Origin: Chryseobacterium geocarposphaerae | Lineage (GTDB): Bacteria; Bacteroidota; Bacteroidia; Flavobacteriales; Weeksellaceae | Length of the DNA: 64,000 bases | Reading direction: 5' to 3' | Assembly (NCBI RefSeq): GCF_002797535.1 | Contig: NZ_PGFD01000004.1 | Coordinates: 1 to 64,000 of the forward strand | Shown here: positions 54,118 to 63,228 of the stretch, one piece after another | Layout of the letters: the number at the start of each line of letters is the position of its first letter | How positions within the stretch are numbered: the first letter of the stretch is position 1 | Notes under the pieces: generated by a model | Seen by the model: the letters and a program-made list of their open reading frames with translations, nothing else | Databases searched by the model: none | Told to the model about the DNA's origin: nothing | Translations under genes and position numbers: made by a program

Positions 54118-54990
54118 ATGTTACGTATTGTTGTTGTATCGGCACTTTTGTTGTGGAGCTGTAACCCAAAAGCTCAGGATTCGCCTAAGACGGATGAGTT
54201 GCAAGTAGAGTTTTCTCTGCCTAAGAAACTGAAAGAAGTTTCGGGGATTGCTTTATCCCAAGACAAAAAAACAATTTGGGCCATAGAAGACCAGGGAAAT
54301 AAAAATGTAGTATACGGAGTGGATATGCAAGGGAAGCTTCTTAAGGATGTTCTGGTAGAAAATGCCGAAAACAATGACTGGGAAGATATTACAAAAGACG
54401 CTCAGGGAAATATTTATTTAGGAGATTTTGGAAATAATGATAATAACAGACAGAATCTCTCTATTTTAAAATTAGGCTTAAAAACGCCATCTCAGGCAAC
54501 GACAAAAGTTATTCAGACTACAAAATTTCATTATGAAGGTCAGACAGAGTTTCCTCCAAAGAAATCGAATTGGCTGTATGATTGTGAAGCCTTTGTGGAA
54601 ATGGATGGAAACTTCTATCTCTTTACAAAAAACAGAAGCAAAGGTTTTGACGGGACTTTTCTGGTTTTCAAGATTCCTAATAAAGAAGGCGATTTTGAAG
54701 CAAAATTGATAGGAAAGTTGAAGCTTAACGGCAAATACAGTGATGCGGCGATCACTTCTGCGGCGATCAACAGCACAAAAGATAAAATAGTCTTATTAAA
54801 TCACAAAAATATTCATGTGCTCTCCGGGTTTTCTGCAAATGATTTTAATACGGCTAAAATTCAGAAAATTTCACTCAATCATAATTCTCAAAAAGAAGCA
54901 GTTGTTTTTCTGGATGACAAAACCCTGCTGATTGCTGATGAAAAAGATAAAGATACAGGAGGAAATATTTATAAATTCAATCTGAAATAA
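54118..54990 (+). CDS. beta-propeller-like lipoprotein
   Basis: 290 residues. Lipoprotein signal LLLWSC (Cys15). The mature chain has repeating strand motifs (LKEVSGIALSQDKKTIWAIE, NDWEDITKDAQGNIYLGDFG, WLYDCEAFVEMDGNFYLFTK) consistent with a six- or seven-bladed propeller, similar to SdiA-regulated-like proteins. The DNxNRQN loop carries acidic residues that might bind metal. Function unknown. Adjacent to FUSC gene by 2 bp, so the last member of the operon. Terminator follows. Confidence 0.82.
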   Translation: MLRIVVVSALLLWSCNPKAQDSPKTDELQVEFSLPKKLKEVSGIALSQDKKTIWAIEDQGNKNVVYGVDMQGKLLKDVLVENAENNDWEDITKDAQGNIYLGDFGNNDNNRQNLSILKLGLKTPSQATTKVIQTTKFHYEGQTEFPPKKSNWLYDCEAFVEMDGNFYLFTKNRSKGFDGTFLVFKIPNKEGDFEAKLIGKLKLNGKYSDAAITSAAINSTKDKIVLLNHKNIHVLSGFSANDFNTAKIQKISLNHNSQKEAVVFLDDKTLLIADEKDKDTGGNIYKFNLK

Positions 54991-55061: not shown

Positions 55062-58000
55062 TTAAAAAGTCATTCCTACTCCCCCGGAAATTCTTCCGCC
55101 ATCGGAACCTGTGAAATAATTCAATCTTGCGGAAAATGTTTCTACAATGCTCATCCAGAAACCGCCACCAATAGACTGATGCCATTTTTTTGAATCTTCG
55201 TGATCATTCCAGACTCTACCGATGTCATATCCTACCAGAATTCCCATGTTTGCAGGAACAATAGGGTTTCTTACCCTCCCGAAATCCCATCGGATTTCAG
55301 AGTTGTTGGTAAAATAAGATCGTCCTGAAAACCTGTCATTTCTGAAAGCCCTCATTCCGTTGTTGCCACCTATACTTGCGGCCTGATAGAATTCAAAGTT
55401 GTTATTGTTGATCCACATTGCGTTGGTGGAATTCGCCAATACGAAGTTTCCTCTTTTATCAAGTCTGTGATCAATAGAAAGCGAACCGTTGAGAATAAGG
55501 AAATTTTTGTCAATATTTGAAAGATTGGTTTTCCAGTCTGCATTCACAACAAACTCCATTCCTAAGGTAGGGAAAGCTGTATTGTCTAAATTTTTGTAGC
55601 TAAATGTATAGTTGGCTCCCGCAAATTGCTGGCTATTGAACACCTCCTGGTTAACATCCGGAGAAACGTCTACAAAACGATTGCCTTTTCTCTGTACCTT
55701 ATTGTTTTCAAACGTAAGCTGAAACTGATGTTGCAGATTCATCCAGCTTTTTTTAGAAATAGACGGAGCAAAATTGAGTTTTGAGATTCTCGCTCTGTTA
55801 TACTTCCGGTCTGTACTTTCTTTATCATATTCACTTTCATTGGATAACCCGAAAAAGTTTTCAGAGAATCGGGGAGTGGTGTACAACGCATCAATATTAA
55901 AATCCCATCCGGCGATTGCTTTTTTGAAAATTCCTTTATAAGCAAGATTAAAGCCGGCTGTAGCAGTATAAAAATTGGCTTTTAAGCTGTGCTTTTGTGT
56001 ATAAGGATCACGAATGAAATTATTAACGGTATAATTGACTAATGCACCAATAATCACTCCGTCATCAGGATTATAATCAGCATTAGGATATCCCGCTACA
56101 AAATTATATTTTGGATGTTTATAATTATAAGTGTTGATATCATAATCATCAGAAATTTTCTTTGTTCCTTCACCGTTATAAGTATTTTTCTGTGATTTGA
56201 AATCGTAGATCTTTACCTTGCTTCCGTTAGCAACAGTATAGGTGTCATGATTATAACCTCCGATTAATCTGATGTTCATCTTTGGACGGCCCTCTCCGGA
56301 AACTTCATAGATGTCATCATCTTCCAGCCCATAGATCCAGAGTTCTTTGGTTTTTGAATCGTCATACGTTTTTTCGAAAACAAGTTCCGGGTTTTCTTTA
56401 TTCTTATCAAGCTTATACTGCTGTACAAGGACTGAGTCTCCAGTTTTGGTAATGACAAATTTGTCAGGATTTACGGTTCCGGCTAATGGTACTTTTTCCT
56501 GTAAAACGTTATAATATTGAGCAGCATAATCCTGCAGTTTTGTTTTTCTGGATTTTAATTTTCGCTGTATATCTGCAAGCGTTTCATCCTGTACTTCTTT
56601 GGGAATATTGGTAAATGCTTCGTCAATATTTTTATCTGTAAGATGTTCCTGGATATATTTGGCCTGAGAAATCCAGTCTTCCTGAGTTGCTCCTTTTAAG
56701 AATATTAAATCTAACGGATAAGGCTCCATATTCATCCATTTTACATTTTTAATATCTTCTTTAAAGGTTTTCATATGTCGGATCGCCGGAATGTTCATGA
56801 TGATTTTGAAAGCTGCTCCGTCATATTTACTGAAAGCCTGATCTCTGTCTCTCGGAATCGGTTTGTAAATGACTTTGTCGCCGGTTTCATATTCTGCCCA
56901 TTTCCATTGATCGGAATGTCTGTCCCAGTCACCAATCAGCATATCAAAAATTCTTGCACGGATGTAAGATTCCTTATCGATTGAATATTTATAGTTTTTA
57001 TTTAAATTTTTAAGGACATCATCTGTAGAAAGAATGTCTTTTGCATTATCCAGTGAAGCCAGTGTTTTCGGGTCCGAAGAAAAACGTTCTTCAATCATAT
57101 ACATTTCATCACCATACGACTGGTTATATTCACCTAAAGCCTGCTGTTTAGGGATATAATATAATCTTGGATTGGAATGGGGAATATCAAGTTTCTCAGC
57201 CATATTACCGACTGAAAAAGGTGTGAAGGGATGATTGGTCGTATAAAAATCCAGTAAGAATTTATCTGGGAAAGTATTGTTCAGTTCGTTTCCGAAAGTG
57301 CTTTTCTTGAAAGCCATATTATTCAGAAAACGGACAGCACTTTTTTTAACGCCTCTCATTACGAATTCCTGACCATCCTGAGCTTTTAGGCGCAAACTGT
57401 TCGACTGGTTTCCGCCTCCTTCCCTGAAAGGTGTATATCCTCCGTCAAGTGTTGAAATATTTGCAGTAGGAGCTTCAATCGGTATTCCGTAATATTTTCT
57501 GTAATGTTCACCCCAAAGCCATCTGTAAATCGGTCCCTTTTGTGTTAATTTTTTAGGATAAATGGTAGAAGTGACGGTAGATGGAAAGGAGTTAGGGTAA
57601 TTATTGATAAATTCTTTAGGTTTTTCAATCACCTGAACGTGGGTAAGCTTTTGCAGCGTATTATCTTTTGTTGAAAAATATTCGATATCCGAACTCTGAT
57701 CTTTTCTGATATTCAATATGGCAAAACCACTTCCTCCGTAGGAAAAATCTGTTCTTGAACCGATTGTTGCAGGATCTACTTTTGAACCTGCCCCACTGAT
57801 GATCTGCCGGATGTTTCTTTCTTCATGATATTGAAGGTTATGATCATGCCCCGAAACAAAAATGATATTTTCTTTCTCCTGAACAATACTTTTTAACCGG
57901 TTGGCTAAATCAGCGTAATGCTGGTTGTTGATATCTTCCGGGTTTGCTCCGGAAGAACTTCTTAAAATATTGATGATGCTTGCAATTCCGGGAAGAGGAA

Positions 58001-58775
58001 TTTTTGAGTTTAAAGGAAAAAGATGAGAAGCAGCAGAGTTATATCCTGCATGAGTTCCGCTGCTGATCACAGGATGATGCAATGCTACAATAATTCTTTT
58101 ATCCTGATTTTTATTAACAAGGTCTTTAAATTCAGTGAAAAGATCTTCTCGGGTTTTAATGTCACAGTTTTTATTGATTCCGGGATAATTGTCCCAGTTG
58201 GCCAGTACCCATTCAGTATCGACTACAATTAATTTGATATCTTTTGTCAGGCTAATATCATCCAGAGGACAGGAATTTTTGGGCAGGAATGCTTTTTTAT
58301 CATTAAAATAATTTTTTACGAGATCTTCCTGGGCTTTTAATCCATCAAGGCCATTATACCAATCATGATTTCCTGGAATTACCAATGTTTTTCCTTTGAA
58401 ATTTTTGGTTATGTTCAATTGATTTTCCAATTTCTGCTTTGCCAGTGCGTAATCTTTATCAGATTCTTTGGGCATTCCGTTAGGATAAATATTATCGCCC
58501 AAAAAAATAAGCATCGAGTTTTTATCGGCAGAATCCAGTTTTGATTTTAATAAGCCTAATGTCTGCTGAGCCTGAGGTTCATCAGCATTTCCTGCGTCAC
58601 CTATCAGGAAAATTTTGAAATCATTTTCAGTCTTGATATCAGAATGTTGTATTTCAGATAAGTTTTTACCCTTTTTTACGTTATATGTTGCGCAGGAATA
58701 GAGTACTCCTGCAGATAATACCGTTCTTACGACAACGGAAGTATTTTTTAGATGAGTTTTAAAGGATAAATTCAT
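55062..58775 (-). CDS. tripartite lipoprotein: phosphoesterase, kinase-like region, beta-barrel
   Basis: 1237 residues. Lipoprotein signal LYSC (Cys28). Residues about 52-380 are a calcineurin-like phosphoesterase: GDAG (Asp60), GDNIYPNG (Asp94), GNHDWYNG (Asn136, His137), LHHPV (His233/234) and GHDHN (309-312). About 480-760 has no classic assignment but contains GDWDRHSDQWKW (Asp618-Arg-His620) and PRDRDQAFSKYDG (Asp643, Asp645), resembling the catalytic and metal motifs of CotH/Fam20/HipA-type kinases. About 900-1237 is a barrel ending ISGGVGMTF, with Omp85/BamA-like GGNNGMRAF and FDFG-type (IRWDFGRV) strands. Such large proteins occur in Bacteroidetes and are annotated as metallophosphoesterase or surface antigen; activity is unknown. 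Confidence 0.85.
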   Translation of the reverse strand: MNLSFKTHLKNTSVVVRTVLSAGVLYSCATYNVKKGKNLSEIQHSDIKTENDFKIFLIGDAGNADEPQAQQTLGLLKSKLDSADKNSMLIFLGDNIYPNGMPKESDKDYALAKQKLENQLNITKNFKGKTLVIPGNHDWYNGLDGLKAQEDLVKNYFNDKKAFLPKNSCPLDDISLTKDIKLIVVDTEWVLANWDNYPGINKNCDIKTREDLFTEFKDLVNKNQDKRIIVALHHPVISSGTHAGYNSAASHLFPLNSKIPLPGIASIINILRSSSGANPEDINNQHYADLANRLKSIVQEKENIIFVSGHDHNLQYHEERNIRQIISGAGSKVDPATIGSRTDFSYGGSGFAILNIRKDQSSDIEYFSTKDNTLQKLTHVQVIEKPKEFINNYPNSFPSTVTSTIYPKKLTQKGPIYRWLWGEHYRKYYGIPIEAPTANISTLDGGYTPFREGGGNQSNSLRLKAQDGQEFVMRGVKKSAVRFLNNMAFKKSTFGNELNNTFPDKFLLDFYTTNHPFTPFSVGNMAEKLDIPHSNPRLYYIPKQQALGEYNQSYGDEMYMIEERFSSDPKTLASLDNAKDILSTDDVLKNLNKNYKYSIDKESYIRARIFDMLIGDWDRHSDQWKWAEYETGDKVIYKPIPRDRDQAFSKYDGAAFKIIMNIPAIRHMKTFKEDIKNVKWMNMEPYPLDLIFLKGATQEDWISQAKYIQEHLTDKNIDEAFTNIPKEVQDETLADIQRKLKSRKTKLQDYAAQYYNVLQEKVPLAGTVNPDKFVITKTGDSVLVQQYKLDKNKENPELVFEKTYDDSKTKELWIYGLEDDDIYEVSGEGRPKMNIRLIGGYNHDTYTVANGSKVKIYDFKSQKNTYNGEGTKKISDDYDINTYNYKHPKYNFVAGYPNADYNPDDGVIIGALVNYTVNNFIRDPYTQKHSLKANFYTATAGFNLAYKGIFKKAIAGWDFNIDALYTTPRFSENFFGLSNESEYDKESTDRKYNRARISKLNFAPSISKKSWMNLQHQFQLTFENNKVQRKGNRFVDVSPDVNQEVFNSQQFAGANYTFSYKNLDNTAFPTLGMEFVVNADWKTNLSNIDKNFLILNGSLSIDHRLDKRGNFVLANSTNAMWINNNNFEFYQAASIGGNNGMRAFRNDRFSGRSYFTNNSEIRWDFGRVRNPIVPANMGILVGYDIGRVWNDHEDSKKWHQSIGGGFWMSIVETFSARLNYFTGSDGGRISGGVGMTF

Positions 58776-58801
58776 AAATTTACAATAACAAAATTTCAGT
58801 G

Positions 58802-59977
58802 ATGAGCATTTTACAAAAAGCCAAAGATTATGTTGAAATCTTATTCAAAGATAAGTTATCTTCGGTATATTTTTATCATAATTTTATTCATACTACCTAC
58901 ACGGTCAACAAGGCCGAAGAAATCTTAAAGCATACTCAGGTCTCAGAACAGGATCAAGAGAAAGTTTTGCTTGCTCTTTGGTTTCATGATACGGGGTACA
59001 TAGAATGTGCACAGAACCATGAAGAAAAAGGAGTCGAGATTATGAAAGACTTTTTGAAAAAAGAAAATTATCCTGAAAACTATATTGAGGATGTTGCCAA
59101 GCTTATTTTAGCTACTAAAATTACATATGAGCCCCAGAATCTGCTGGAAAAAATTGTCAAAGATTCGGATTGCAGCCATTTTGCAAGCCACGATTATAAT
59201 GATATTTCTGATGCATTAAGAAAAGAATGGGAACTTACCAATGTGAGATGCTTTTCCAATGATGAATGGAATGCCGGAAACCTGGAAATGCTGAAAAATA
59301 AGCATAGGTTTTATACAGACTATGCAAAAACAGCCTGGCAGCCTCTGAAGGAAAAAAACATCAAAAAAATCGAAAAAAAATTGGAAAAAGAGGAAGGAAA
59401 AGAAGGCAAAAAAGAGGGTTCCGAAAATAAGAAAGAAAAAGAACCTAAATCTGACAGAAGTGTGGATACTTTGTTCAGAGTAACTTTGAGCAATCATACG
59501 AGACTGAGTGATATTGCAGACAGCAAAGCGAATATCTTATTGTCTGTAAATGCGATCATTATTTCGGTTTGTCTTTCTGTATTGGTTCCCAAGCTGGATA
59601 CACCTAAGAACTCACATTTGATCATTCCTAGCTTTATTCTTTTGTTATCGGCAGTTTTAACGATCATATTTGCTATTTTATCTACAAAACCTAATGTTAC
59701 GCAGGCAAGATTTACCATGCAGGATGTTGCAGACCGAAAAGTAAATCTTTTATTCTTTGGTAACTTTAATAGAATGATTTTCGATGATTACCAGAGCGCG
59801 ATGAACATTTTGATCAAAGATCGTGATTATATTTACGATTCGATGGTGAAAGATTTATATTATCTGGGGAAAGTACTTGACAGAAAATACAGGCTTTTGT
59901 CTATAACCTATAAAATCTTTATGGCCGGAATTATCATTTCCGTATTATCTTTCGGATATGCTTTTCTTTCACTGTAA
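58802..59977 (+). CDS. HD-domain phosphohydrolase fused to Pycsar-effector (PycTM) domain
   Basis: 391 residues from ATG 58802 (GTG one codon earlier possible). N-terminal HD domain (about 1-165): His26 and His30 in YFYHNFIHTTY, His62-Asp63 in LWFHDTGY, His73, Asp121 in VKDSDCSHF. A Lys/Glu-rich linker (about 185-215) leads to a PycTM-type domain (about 218-391): LFRVTLSNHTRLSDIADSKA, ANILLSVNAIIISVCLSVLV, IPSFILLLSAVLTIIFAILS and a last helix ending GYAFLSL. PycTM proteins are membrane effectors of cyclic-pyrimidine (Pycsar) anti-phage signalling. No cyclase gene is nearby. Bestrophin gene follows 22 bp later. Confidence 0.88.
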   Translation: MSILQKAKDYVEILFKDKLSSVYFYHNFIHTTYTVNKAEEILKHTQVSEQDQEKVLLALWFHDTGYIECAQNHEEKGVEIMKDFLKKENYPENYIEDVAKLILATKITYEPQNLLEKIVKDSDCSHFASHDYNDISDALRKEWELTNVRCFSNDEWNAGNLEMLKNKHRFYTDYAKTAWQPLKEKNIKKIEKKLEKEEGKEGKKEGSENKKEKEPKSDRSVDTLFRVTLSNHTRLSDIADSKANILLSVNAIIISVCLSVLVPKLDTPKNSHLIIPSFILLLSAVLTIIFAILSTKPNVTQARFTMQDVADRKVNLLFFGNFNRMIFDDYQSAMNILIKDRDYIYDSMVKDLYYLGKVLDRKYRLLSITYKIFMAGIIISVLSFGYAFLSL

Positions 59978-59999: not shown

Positions 60000-60914
60000 A
60001 TGATTGTAAGACAGCGTACCAACTGGCTGAAAATGCTTTTTATATGGAGAGGTTCTGTATTAAAGAAAATTATTGTTCAGCTTTTTTCCATTACGTTGTT
60101 TTCTTTGGCCATCTATTTTTTCAAAGGAAAAATTTTTGATTACAAAGTTCATCTCAATCCGACTATTTTTACTTTGATCGGGCTGGCTCTTGCTATCTTT
60201 ATGGGATTCTGCAATACAGCAAGCTATGACCGTTATTGGGAAGGAAGAAAACTTTGGGGATTGTTGGTGATTGAAACCCGGTCTTTAACCCGTCAAATTT
60301 TATCTTTGGTAGATGGACCGCAAAATGAGGAAAAGCAAAAAATTGTAAGAATGATTTCTGCTTTTTGCTGGTCTTTAAATTATCAATTAAGAAATAAACC
60401 AGGGAAAGAACATCTTTCGAGGCTGCTTTCTCCGGAGCAGGTAGAAAAGCTGAATGGGAAAAAATTTATTCCCGGTATTATTTTAGGATTTATTGCTGAT
60501 TGGATCAAAGAGCAGAACAGAAAAGGAAATATTGATACCATTGTTTTAACGCAGCTCGATCATCAGTTGAATCAATTTTCGAGTATTTCCGGAGGTTGTG
60601 AAAGGATTTTAAATACACCATTACCCTTTGCATATAGTGTTTTACTGCATCGTACCGTATATTTTTACTGTTTTTGGCTTCCTTTTGGATTGGTTGATAC
60701 ATTGGGCTGGATGATGCCTCTGATTGTGGGTTTGATAAGTTATACCTTTATTGCATTAGATGCGATTATTCAGGAAATTGCAGAACCTTTTGGTGAAGAA
60801 GAAAATGACCTTGCCCTGAACACCATTTGCAGAACAATTGAGTTTTCTATTTTTGAGCAGGCAGAAATTCCACAAGAGGAGCTTAAGGTGCCGGACTCTT
60901 ATTTTATTGATTAA
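60000..60914 (+). CDS. bestrophin-family anion channel
   Basis: 304 residues. Four core helices with LKKIIVQLFSITLFSLAIYF, LNPTIFTLIGLALAIFMGFC, the bestrophin box NTASYDRYWEGRKLWGLLVI (about 72-91), and the neck/C-terminal GLVDTLGWMMPLIVGLISYT with LDAIIQEIAEPFGEEENDLA. Bacterial bestrophins are pentameric ion channels (anion or sodium). Starts 22 bp after the HD-PycTM stop, so a two-gene operon is likely. The last 11 bp overlap the tail of the convergent GAF gene. Confidence 0.94.
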   Translation: MIVRQRTNWLKMLFIWRGSVLKKIIVQLFSITLFSLAIYFFKGKIFDYKVHLNPTIFTLIGLALAIFMGFCNTASYDRYWEGRKLWGLLVIETRSLTRQILSLVDGPQNEEKQKIVRMISAFCWSLNYQLRNKPGKEHLSRLLSPEQVEKLNGKKFIPGIILGFIADWIKEQNRKGNIDTIVLTQLDHQLNQFSSISGGCERILNTPLPFAYSVLLHRTVYFYCFWLPFGLVDTLGWMMPLIVGLISYTFIALDAIIQEIAEPFGEEENDLALNTICRTIEFSIFEQAEIPQEELKVPDSYFID

Positions 60915-63228
60915 TCATATTTTGGGTAAGAATAGAAACCCTTAACGCTAAAAGCCCTGTAATCCCTTGTAAATCTTCTACTTTTAAAAATTCTACATCA
61001 TGGTGAAGAATATTTTTTTTCTGTAATTTACTGATGTAATCTAAATATTCTTTTTGATTTTCCATTCCGAAATAAACTATGGTAACTTTTCCAGGGCAAG
61101 TAATTCTTTCGGTGGAATCTTTGATATGAGCTTTATCCAAACGTTTTTTAATGATCTCATAATAGGAATTATAAGCGCCATCTATATCAAAACGTTTTTC
61201 ATCCATTCTGAAGCGGATATCAACTTTCTCGTTATACACAAATATTAAAGAGGCTATATCCAAAGGAACAGGCAGGTTTGTTTTGAAGCTTTGAAACTCC
61301 TGTTCTAGTGTACAAACGGTTTTCAATTGCCAGTATCTCAATCTGTGGACTACTTTTGAGGTATAATGTAGTTCTGGAGCAATCGTATTGCCAATATAGA
61401 GATTATGTTCTACACCATCTGATTTAAATCTTTCATAATAATGTGGAAAAATCTGCTGTGCCTTAATTTGGTTTTCATCCAGAATATCTGCCAGTTTTCT
61501 GTTGACCAATGTGATGGATTCATCCAGATTTTTTCTGCGGTTATAGAAAAGATGATTTTGAACGAATACTTTTGAGAAATAGTCTTTAATTTTAGATTTT
61601 ACTTCTTTAGTACTTTTTATTTCCAGTTTTCCCTGTAAAAAAGGATGGATTTCATCTCTTAAAAGTCTTTGAAAACGCTGCTCCGTATCTGCTTTGATGT
61701 CATTGTTCAGTTCGTTTTCAAAAATATCTAATGCCAGTAAATATTTTTCTGAATCTGAGTTGATGAGCGAAAAAAGATCATGAAGACTTTCTATCTGTTC
61801 ATTTAAATCTTCAAGCATTAAATTATAACGCTTTTCAGACGAAGAACGGATATCAGAAAAACCAAAAAGCGGAGTCAGATTTTTAAACGAAATCTGCTTC
61901 AATGTATACATTTTCCTACCTAAAAAAGCATTGTAATACTTTTCGGCTTCGTTTCTGAATTTCCATACCACACTATCATGGATTGTAGTATATTCTCTTT
62001 GAATAATGGCTTCAATCTGGTTATTTCTTTCAAAAGTAAACCTGCTTAAAGAGAAAAGAATCATATCCGCAAAGAATTCAAGCTTTTTGAGCTTCAGTCC
62101 GTTGAAACTGTATGCTATAGGAGAAGTAAACTCCATAATTGCAAGAAGTTCATTGTCTTTCATGATAGGGATTACCATGAAGCTGTTGATATTATTATTT
62201 TTTAATATACTGAAGGAAGGAAGTTTTTGTATTTCATGATCTAAATGGTCAACATTTGAAATAACAACAGGTTTGGAATTATGACTCAGATTATTGAACG
62301 TACTTTCCCTAACCTCCTGATCAAAAGTATTGATCCAGAAATCGAGAATATGATTGGTAAAGACGTTCTCATAGATCGGAACATTTTCCAGTCTTTTTTC
62401 CTTTTTGTTGAAAAGCATTAACCCGAAATTAAGCTCAGAAACATCAAAATAAGATTTGAAAATTTCCTTCAGATTTTCATCAGGAACAAGATTCTCCGGA
62501 TCAATTTTAATCATGGTTGATTTTAAATCCGATAACGCCACTTCTGAGGTGCAGTCTACCAGAGAAATAATGGTAAACCCGCTTAATATCCATGATTTTG
62601 AAGGGAAATATTTTTTCCATAATGCAGTATCATCCAGATTTTCCAGAAGCATATCTATAACAGCATCCGGGGGAATTGGAGCATCCTGTGTAGGATAAAC
62701 CTCCGAAAAATCGGAATTTACCGTGATTTTATAATGCTTCATGATTCCCTGTTTATTGGGAATATCATAATAAAAGGGTAGTGTGGACTTGATATCTCTT
62801 TTGAAATAGGTCTGTAAGATGAGACAGCAGCAGAAAACATAAAACTCATCATCATCAATGTTTCTGAGCTCAATTTCAAAATCTTTTCCTGCTTCTTTCA
62901 GAATATTTTTGAATCGCTCGGTATAATTGAACGTAATATTGGAAAGCGGAATACTTGCCGCTTTTATTTCATTATTAGTTAAACCGGTAGGAAACAGGTC
63001 GGCTAGTAAAAGCTTGATAATATCCTCATATTTGTCTAGTAAGGACACATCCTGAAAGCCATTTTTCAGCTCCTGAAAATTGTTGGTCTTCTCGATCAGG
63101 GATTCGGCATAATTGGCACGATACTCTAACCTGTCATTATAACGGATATGTTCCAACACATCCAAATACTTTTTGAATGATATGTAAACCTGAAATGGAG
63201 CGTCTTTTTTATAAAGGTTTGCCAACAA
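60904..63228 (-). CDS. large GAF-domain protein of unknown function
   Basis: 774 residues. A GAF-like domain occupies about 260-400 (LKEIFKSYFDVSELNFGLML, NINSFMVIPIMKDNELLAIM, LKLKKLEFFADMILFSLSRF). The flanking N-region is helical, with an unusual Cys triplet (FYVFCCCLILQTYF), and the C-half is a charged helical domain with FRMDEKRFDIDGAYNSYYEI and CPGKVTIVYFGMENQKEYLD. No histidine kinase, cyclase or phosphodiesterase domain is visible. GAF domains bind cyclic nucleotides, heme or small ligands, but the ligand is unknown. Convergent with, and overlapping by 11 bp, the bestrophin gene. Confidence 0.82.
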   Translation of the reverse strand: MLANLYKKDAPFQVYISFKKYLDVLEHIRYNDRLEYRANYAESLIEKTNNFQELKNGFQDVSLLDKYEDIIKLLLADLFPTGLTNNEIKAASIPLSNITFNYTERFKNILKEAGKDFEIELRNIDDDEFYVFCCCLILQTYFKRDIKSTLPFYYDIPNKQGIMKHYKITVNSDFSEVYPTQDAPIPPDAVIDMLLENLDDTALWKKYFPSKSWILSGFTIISLVDCTSEVALSDLKSTMIKIDPENLVPDENLKEIFKSYFDVSELNFGLMLFNKKEKRLENVPIYENVFTNHILDFWINTFDQEVRESTFNNLSHNSKPVVISNVDHLDHEIQKLPSFSILKNNNINSFMVIPIMKDNELLAIMEFTSPIAYSFNGLKLKKLEFFADMILFSLSRFTFERNNQIEAIIQREYTTIHDSVVWKFRNEAEKYYNAFLGRKMYTLKQISFKNLTPLFGFSDIRSSSEKRYNLMLEDLNEQIESLHDLFSLINSDSEKYLLALDIFENELNNDIKADTEQRFQRLLRDEIHPFLQGKLEIKSTKEVKSKIKDYFSKVFVQNHLFYNRRKNLDESITLVNRKLADILDENQIKAQQIFPHYYERFKSDGVEHNLYIGNTIAPELHYTSKVVHRLRYWQLKTVCTLEQEFQSFKTNLPVPLDIASLIFVYNEKVDIRFRMDEKRFDIDGAYNSYYEIIKKRLDKAHIKDSTERITCPGKVTIVYFGMENQKEYLDYISKLQKKNILHHDVEFLKVEDLQGITGLLALRVSILTQNMINQ

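Follow-up and report, generated by a model that had tools for sequence, protein, structure and literature searches.

The window analysed here, a 64,000-nucleotide stretch of the Chryseobacterium geocarposphaerae genome, carries on its reverse strand a gene for a protein of 1237 amino acids (aa), below called the fusion protein, in which a phosphatase-type domain, a predicted kinase-like fold and a predicted outer-membrane barrel are joined in a single chain. The open reading frame (ORF) starts with ATG, and its ends (55062-58775) are exactly those given in an initial annotation of the window made from the sequence alone. The source genome measures 4.1 Mb and holds the gene in a single copy; the sole other match to the protein in this genome was weak (52 residues, against residues 855-906, E 0.013). 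Among the relatives listed, the closest was that of Chryseobacterium sp. Y16C (99% over residues 410-800). The following domain anatomy is near certain, with the kinase fold and the barrel being high-confidence predictions:

55062..58775, reverse strand: whole fusion gene, 1237 aa, comprising leader, phosphoesterase, kinase-fold domain, beta linker and Omp85 barrel (ORF, relatives)
58692..58775, reverse strand: lipoprotein-type leader, residues 1-28, ending at Cys28 (LYSC-ATY; VLYSC-ATY) (sequence, relatives)
57636..58628, reverse strand: calcineurin-like phosphoesterase of the purple-acid-phosphatase type, residues ~50-380, with D60, D94, Y97, N136, H137, H234, H310 and H312 (Pfam, PDB sequence matches, conservation)
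56481..57488, reverse strand: predicted kinase-fold domain, residues ~430-765 (AF2 model, Foldseek/VIA, hhalign to CotH)
56103..56480, reverse strand: beta-rich linker between kinase-fold domain and barrel, residues ~766-891 (secondary structure of the models)
55071..56102, reverse strand: predicted 16-strand Omp85 barrel, residues ~892-1235 (Pfam, structure model)
55329..55358, reverse strand: GMRAFRNDRF, residues 1140-1149, a variant of the Omp85 loop-6 motif (alignment; family consensus GLRGYRNxRF)

Terminal domains and cellular location

The initial annotation had credited the N-terminal part with all motifs of calcineurin-like phosphoesterases, and this proved correct: residues 54-250 matched Pfam Metallophos (PF00149) above its cut-off (E 8.3e-11, 43.1 versus 21.5 bits), and the motifs GDAG, GDNIY, GNHD, HHP and GHDH form a complete set. 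We take the metal-ligand set D, GDxxY, GNH, H and GHxH to be that of the purple acid phosphatase type. A search of PDB sequences at E<=0.01 returned for this domain solely tartrate-resistant/purple acid phosphatases (six sequences, best E 3e-8). Among 150 distinct fused proteins, the fusion protein included, the ligands are well kept: D60 in 135, D94 in 144, Y97 in 134, N136 in 140, H137 in 134, H234 in 149, H310 in 147 and H312 in 137. The domain thus resembles purple acid phosphatases such as TRAP (ACP5) in its five metal-ligand motifs, including GDxxY, whereas the fusion protein adds to them a kinase-fold domain and a barrel. A metallophosphoesterase of Riemerella reportedly has phosphatase activity, going by the title of a study by Niu et al. 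from 2021. Identity of that metallophosphoesterase with the fusion protein was considered and rejected, since a review places it, in a table, among the effectors of the type IX secretion system (PMC10202324); it is probably a different protein.

A C-terminal Omp85-type barrel, as initially proposed, was likewise recovered: scanned alone, it matched Pfam Omp85 (PF01103) above the cut-off (45.4 versus 24 bits, E 1e-11), and it was modelled with 16 strands. Together with a loop-6 motif of the VRGF/Y type, which we presume GMRAFRNDRF to be, this is what characterises Omp85 proteins. With the whole protein, the NCBIfam Omp85_fam model stayed below its cut-off (52.9 versus 200 bits, E 4e-14); in a set of 56 aligned barrels that includes the one of the fusion protein, the Omp85 model found two and the related ShlB model 37 at E<=0.01; and a barrel profile found only weak matches among PDB sequences (Cysteine Rich Protein B, E 0.59; BamA, E 9). 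Omp85 proteins typically, though not universally, have N-terminal POTRA domains. Pfam and NCBIfam scans of the whole fusion protein gave no POTRA match, the linker (residues 766-891) not having been searched alone. This linker, to which the scans of the whole protein assigned no family, contains a conserved GGxxxDxY.

The fusion of a phosphoesterase with an Omp85 barrel is already published as the 'Metallo' subfamily of Omp85 proteins, which have a PF00149 domain before the barrel (Heinz and Lithgow 2014, PMC4104836), and the architecture described there makes it very probable that the fusion protein belongs to this subfamily. In the accessible text of that paper PF00149 is labelled a metalloprotease domain, the word kinase is absent and no domain between PF00149 and the barrel is mentioned; the kinase-fold domain between the two appears to be the new part. 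A search of open-access journal papers aimed at this question showed, among the papers listed, no account of the middle domain as kinase-like, and the terms phosphoesterase and phosphatase are absent from the accessible text of recent papers on the Bacteroidota BAM and TamL (PMC12611786, PMC12045153).

According to a crude pattern, a lipobox-like Cys is present in 76 of 77 full-length plus-strand fused relatives from named genomes, and the fusion protein would therefore bear an N-terminal lipid and reside in the outer membrane. Among relatives consisting of kinase-fold domain and barrel, plain signal peptides were recognised by eye in most of 16 printed starts; in the starts of 13 stand-alone kinase-fold proteins, also read by eye, there was a single membrane segment in five and a lipobox-like leader in several others. 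These leaders lend good support to an extracytoplasmic place, and for the fusion protein a location outside the cytoplasm is very likely. The N-termini of Omp85 proteins point into the periplasm, and an acidic stretch following the lipoprotein Cys acts as a signal for surface export. Since no such stretch was seen by eye after Cys28, both catalytic domains would, by these rules, face the periplasm.

The predicted kinase-fold domain

The initial annotation had read the middle region as kinase-like, and the predicted fold, near-invariant motifs and a profile link to CotH all speak for this. A model of residues 397-870 built with AlphaFold2 (AF2) has high confidence for the middle domain (pLDDT 92.6) and displays the two lobes of a kinase. 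All 10 Foldseek matches at E<=1e-3 were kinase folds (CtkA, HipA, CotH, Rio2 and PI4KII), and after re-alignment with VIA, which mainly covered model residues 4-366 in the kinase model and 125-482 in the barrel model, a kinase fold was found in 49 of the 50 chains listed. The possibility that the region folds as something else, against which the initial reading was to be checked, thus found no support. Known families did not reveal the domain: no model recognised it in Pfam and NCBIfam scans of the fusion protein or in Pfam scans of 72 aligned relatives, a profile search against PDB sequences yielded just a citrate synthase (E 0.87), and PHROGs gave nothing useful. Residues 597-748 had weak PADLOC matches to PDC-M03A (E 6e-4 and 1.3e-3).

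Four motifs were placed on the model:

57405..57419, reverse strand: glycine-rich loop GGGNQ, residues 453-457, between predicted beta1 and beta2 (sequence, model strands)
57342..57356, reverse strand: RGVKK, residues 474-478, predicted beta3, with Arg474 at the usual place of Lys and Lys478 at the strand end (sequence, model)
56898..56933, reverse strand: predicted catalytic loop GDWDRHSDQWKW, residues 615-626, between alphaE and beta7 (sequence, conservation)
56832..56855, reverse strand: predicted metal-binding (DFG-position) motif PRDRDQAF, residues 641-648, directly after beta8 (sequence, conservation)

Conservation of these motifs across the 150 fused proteins is high. G453 and G454 occur in 148, R474 in all 150 and K478 in 149; in the catalytic loop the counts are 150 for D616, 145 for D618, 147 for R619, 146 for H620 and 144 for Q623, and in the metal-binding motif 148 for D643 and 149 for D645. 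Near-invariant motifs can be written as GxWDRHxxQ and PxDRDxxF, and in the 72 aligned middle domains D616, R619, W626, D643, R644 and D645 are each found in every sequence. The Asp and His residues on which the kinase-like reading depended are therefore nearly invariant in homologues. With residues 410-800, 5479 proteins among 7997 candidates scored reached E<=1e-3, and D-x-DRH-xx-Q is present in 231 of 240 proteins fetched; for this reason, and given the predicted fold, a chance occurrence of the motif was rejected. The catalytic Asp would be Asp618 or Asp616, and the metal ligand Asp643 and/or Asp645. The initial annotation had assigned the metal to Asp645; this residue is indeed nearly invariant, but Asp643 has at least an equal claim as the DFG-type Asp because of its position after strand beta8.

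The relationship to known kinases was assessed with hhalign, CotH being represented by a profile built from 27 members of its family (ORFs of sampled Bacteroidota). The middle domain aligned with it at a score of 46.6 (P 5e-5, probability 67%), with the catalytic and metal loops in register, whereas eight unrelated profiles, taken from neighbouring genes and other domains of the fusion protein, scored at most 25.0 and HipA 25.8. Three further row sets (208, 58 and 150 rows) gave CotH scores of 43.0-46.2, against at most 23.5 for the controls and at most 18.3 for reversed queries. The proposed resemblance to CotH thereby gained support. That to HipA fared less clearly, at 24.6-33.9 with the same row sets against control maxima of 23.5-25.0, and Pfam HipA_C lacked a match. 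A distant relationship of the kinase-fold domain to CotH is likely: the kinase fold, a catalytic Asp and a DxD metal motif in register are all found, and P-x-D-x-D-x-x-[FL] is common to both.

CotH is a Ser/Thr kinase that is inactivated by substitution of Asp228 and is distantly related to Fam20C (PMC7821199). The kinase-fold domain differs from the CotH family (PF08757) in having DRH where CotH has D-x-[YF], and in its fusion to a phosphoesterase and a barrel in a gene which the Pfam model misses. Membership of the Pfam CotH family was rejected, since the model matched neither the protein, its genome nor the relatives, CotH being absent from the 25 families shown for the 72 aligned relatives; membership of the Pfam HipA family was rejected as well, HipA_C matching neither protein nor genome and just one of the 72 relatives (E 0.019). 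Fam20C shares an atypical kinase fold (Foldseek E 1.5e-3, a comparison at the level of the fold) and acts outside the cytosol, but has no barrel. The resemblance presumably extends to DRH and the Asp metal motif, Fam20C having a beta3 Lys where the fusion protein has Arg. A review of Fam20 contained none of the active-site terms looked for in it. The kinases PI4KII, HipA and CtkA are not envelope proteins of the fusion type, and the HipA profile scores run from the control level up to 33.9.

Architectures and possible roles

The whole fusion protein was matched in 160 of 395 genomes of the phylum at E<=1e-5, and an alignment of the middle domain in 113 of 296 sampled genomes at E<=1e-8. Judged by frame size alone, the 139 matches of the latter search divide into 81 of fused size (>=1150 aa), 41 of the size of kinase-fold domain plus barrel (790-1149 aa), 15 below 600 aa and two intermediate; domain searches at fetched loci confirmed fused, kinase-plus-barrel and stand-alone examples. 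The kinase-fold domain is thus, by sequence comparison, a separable module. A profile search scored 7998 candidates and retained 3402 proteins; of the 120 listed, the majority are about 860 aa long and have an Omp85 barrel, and the named ones include Chitinophagaceae, Cyclobacteriaceae and Ignavibacteriaceae. Where kinase-plus-barrel relatives carry annotated names, these are 'BamA/TamA family outer membrane protein', 'bacterial surface antigen (D15)' or 'hypothetical protein'. The stand-alone relatives include one of about 430 aa from Christiangramia. In places, kinase-fold genes that lack both barrel and phosphoesterase adjoin one another, three at locus L212 (5126-8378, 8469-10151) and two at L213.

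At loci L191 and L192, which belong to two genomes of the same genus, each domain has a gene of its own; the three genes follow one another on the same strand, 6-17 bp apart, in the order kinase-fold protein (518-519 aa), phosphoesterase (403 aa) and barrel (388 aa). At L192 the second and third genes passed the PF00149 and Omp85 cut-offs, respectively, the phosphoesterase having all five motifs. Of all observations, this split operon speaks most strongly for joint action of the three parts. Here the kinase-fold domain and the phosphoesterase are proteins of their own with lipobox-like leaders, encoded beside the barrel, which argues against a secretion unit resembling PlpD (type Vd), whose barrel would export the N-terminal enzymes to the surface or into the medium. 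PlpD is an Omp85 protein with POTRA and patatin domains whose N-terminal enzyme domain is exported (PMC4104836). The fusion protein is like it in combining enzyme domains with an Omp85 barrel, the latter supported by a Pfam match and the model, but has a lipoprotein-type leader (76/77) rather than a free N-terminus and no POTRA match; such a role is quite improbable.

The fused proteins also indicate which part is central. Of the 150, 131 retain every one of the seven phosphoesterase and six kinase-fold residues that were scored; 12 have lost two to six of the seven phosphoesterase residues with the kinase-fold set complete (L226-L230, L234, L262 and others). The reverse loss is clear in one protein (L074, 2/6) and mild in another (L256, 5/6), and the remaining five have residues changed in both domains. 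The kinase-fold domain thus seems to form the core of the system, given that it stays intact in those 12 proteins and is also found joined to a barrel only, or to neither of the other two domains. All 13 stand-alone proteins have D616, D643 and D645, and 11 have D618.

On balance, we lean slightly towards an envelope protein of three domains, whose Omp85 barrel holds a phosphoesterase and a kinase fold of the CotH/PI4KII/HipA type; this pair would add phosphate to an envelope target and remove it again. The barrel would keep both domains at the outer membrane, the kinase-fold domain occupying the place of POTRA in other Omp85 proteins; the phosphate donor would be a nucleotide or some other high-energy compound, and it is plausible that the two enzymes act oppositely on one target. 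A wider version of this interpretation is possible but doubtful: that Omp85 barrels with a CotH-like extracytoplasmic kinase in place of POTRA form a phylum-wide class of outer-membrane kinases, in many species with the opposing phosphatase joined to them in one chain, and constitute self-contained machines for phosphorylation and dephosphorylation.

Several points weigh against a phosphorylating envelope protein. The periplasm is not expected to contain ATP, and the Lys of beta3 that anchors ATP is replaced by the invariant R474 (placed from predicted strands), so that another donor, or none, may be bound. The 10 best Foldseek matches are distant (TM 0.24-0.36 by query and 0.30-0.56 by target, root-mean-square deviation (rmsd) 9-14.5), with VIA rmsd values of 4-5 in the best rows. 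Homology to CotH at hhalign probabilities of 51-67% is no more than suggestive, the link to HipA lies between control level and 33.9, and neither the Pfam CotH nor the HipA_C model matched the fusion protein or anything in its genome. The 45 kinase-plus-barrel proteins are looser in their motifs (D643 in 37, D645 in 33), partly through alignment and truncation; one member is the remnant of a disrupted fused gene (L048), and some ORFs are truncated at an internal ATG. All conservation counts come from related sequences that are not phylogenetically independent and may contain alignment errors. With Arg in place of Lys and no source of ATP, the chances that the domain is active as a kinase seem about even.

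The same two facts, R474 in 150/150 proteins and no ATP expected in the periplasm, make a pseudokinase conceivable: a module binding a substrate or ligand would have replaced POTRA before the barrel, leaving the phosphoesterase as the sole enzyme of the chain. Its position where POTRA domains usually are, and the loss of DxD residues in a minority of kinase-plus-barrel relatives, would fit. However, few residues of the domain vary less than the catalytic Asp, DRH, Q/N and DxD (72 and 150 sequences), and binding alone would need none of these; they are intact, too, in the 12 fused proteins with a decayed phosphoesterase. We regard the pseudokinase as unlikely. A somewhat unlikely alternative, overlapping with the favoured two-enzyme envelope protein, is that the domain is an active transferase other than a protein kinase. 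Its substrates for phosphorylation or adenylylation would be lipids, glycans or small molecules, with lipid A, lipid headgroups and inositol phosphates as candidates, and the phosphoesterase would trim the same class of compound. The best sequence link speaks against it, being to CotH, a Ser/Thr protein kinase (PMC7821199).

The fusion protein would likely handle phosphate on extracytoplasmic targets, and bacterial kinases acting there are known in small number. An active domain would provide Bacteroidota with an envelope kinase, in many cases accompanied by a phosphatase in the same chain; a pseudokinase would represent another way of building an Omp85 protein without POTRA domains. To our knowledge, few enzymes are known for phosphorylation outside the bacterial cytoplasm, and the donor problem is unsolved.

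Gene neighbourhood

Three genes near the fusion gene recur at related loci:

58799..59977, forward strand: HD-domain hydrolase fused to a PycTM membrane domain, divergent neighbour (Pfam, PADLOC)
54118..54990, forward strand: SdiA-regulated/phytase-like protein with a lipoprotein-type leader, convergent neighbour (Pfam PF06977, E 5.4e-6, above cut-off)
60904..63228, reverse strand: GAF-type protein of 774 aa (GAF E 3.9e-4, just under the cut-off)

Among 80 named loci, relatives of the HD-PycTM gene were found at 65, of the SdiA-regulated/phytase-like gene at 62 and of the GAF gene at 56, while MazG, bestrophin and FUSC genes, which also flank the fusion gene, were found at 17, 11 and 5; these counts are lower bounds owing to short contigs, and some matches are fragments at locus ends or not adjacent. 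At kinase-plus-barrel loci, HD-PycTM relatives lay inside the fetched stretch in 16 of 41 cases, two of them partial.

The divergent start of the HD-PycTM gene lies about 26 bp from that of the fusion gene in many Flavobacteriia: of 62 loci measured, the start-to-start gap is 26 bp in 27, 19-29 bp in 15 more and -24 to 4408 bp in the other 20. In the window (58775-58802) it amounts to 23 bp if counted to a GTG, or 26 bp to the ATG that follows. With starts this close, each promoter probably overlaps the start of the other gene. The HD-PycTM gene, of which the genome has one full-length copy, is likely a functional partner of the fusion gene. By Pfam it belongs to the Pycsar effector family, and in PADLOC it matched PycTM and 2TM effectors; it is not obviously part of a defence system. 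A phage-defence reading based on this neighbour was rejected, the kinase-fold domain having only the weak PDC-M03A matches (E 6e-4, 1.3e-3) and no search for a cyclase having been made.

In Chryseobacterium sp. E1 (L048) the fusion gene is spread over several ORFs, and its neighbours are in part short or broken up as well; either this copy has decayed or the sequence contains errors.

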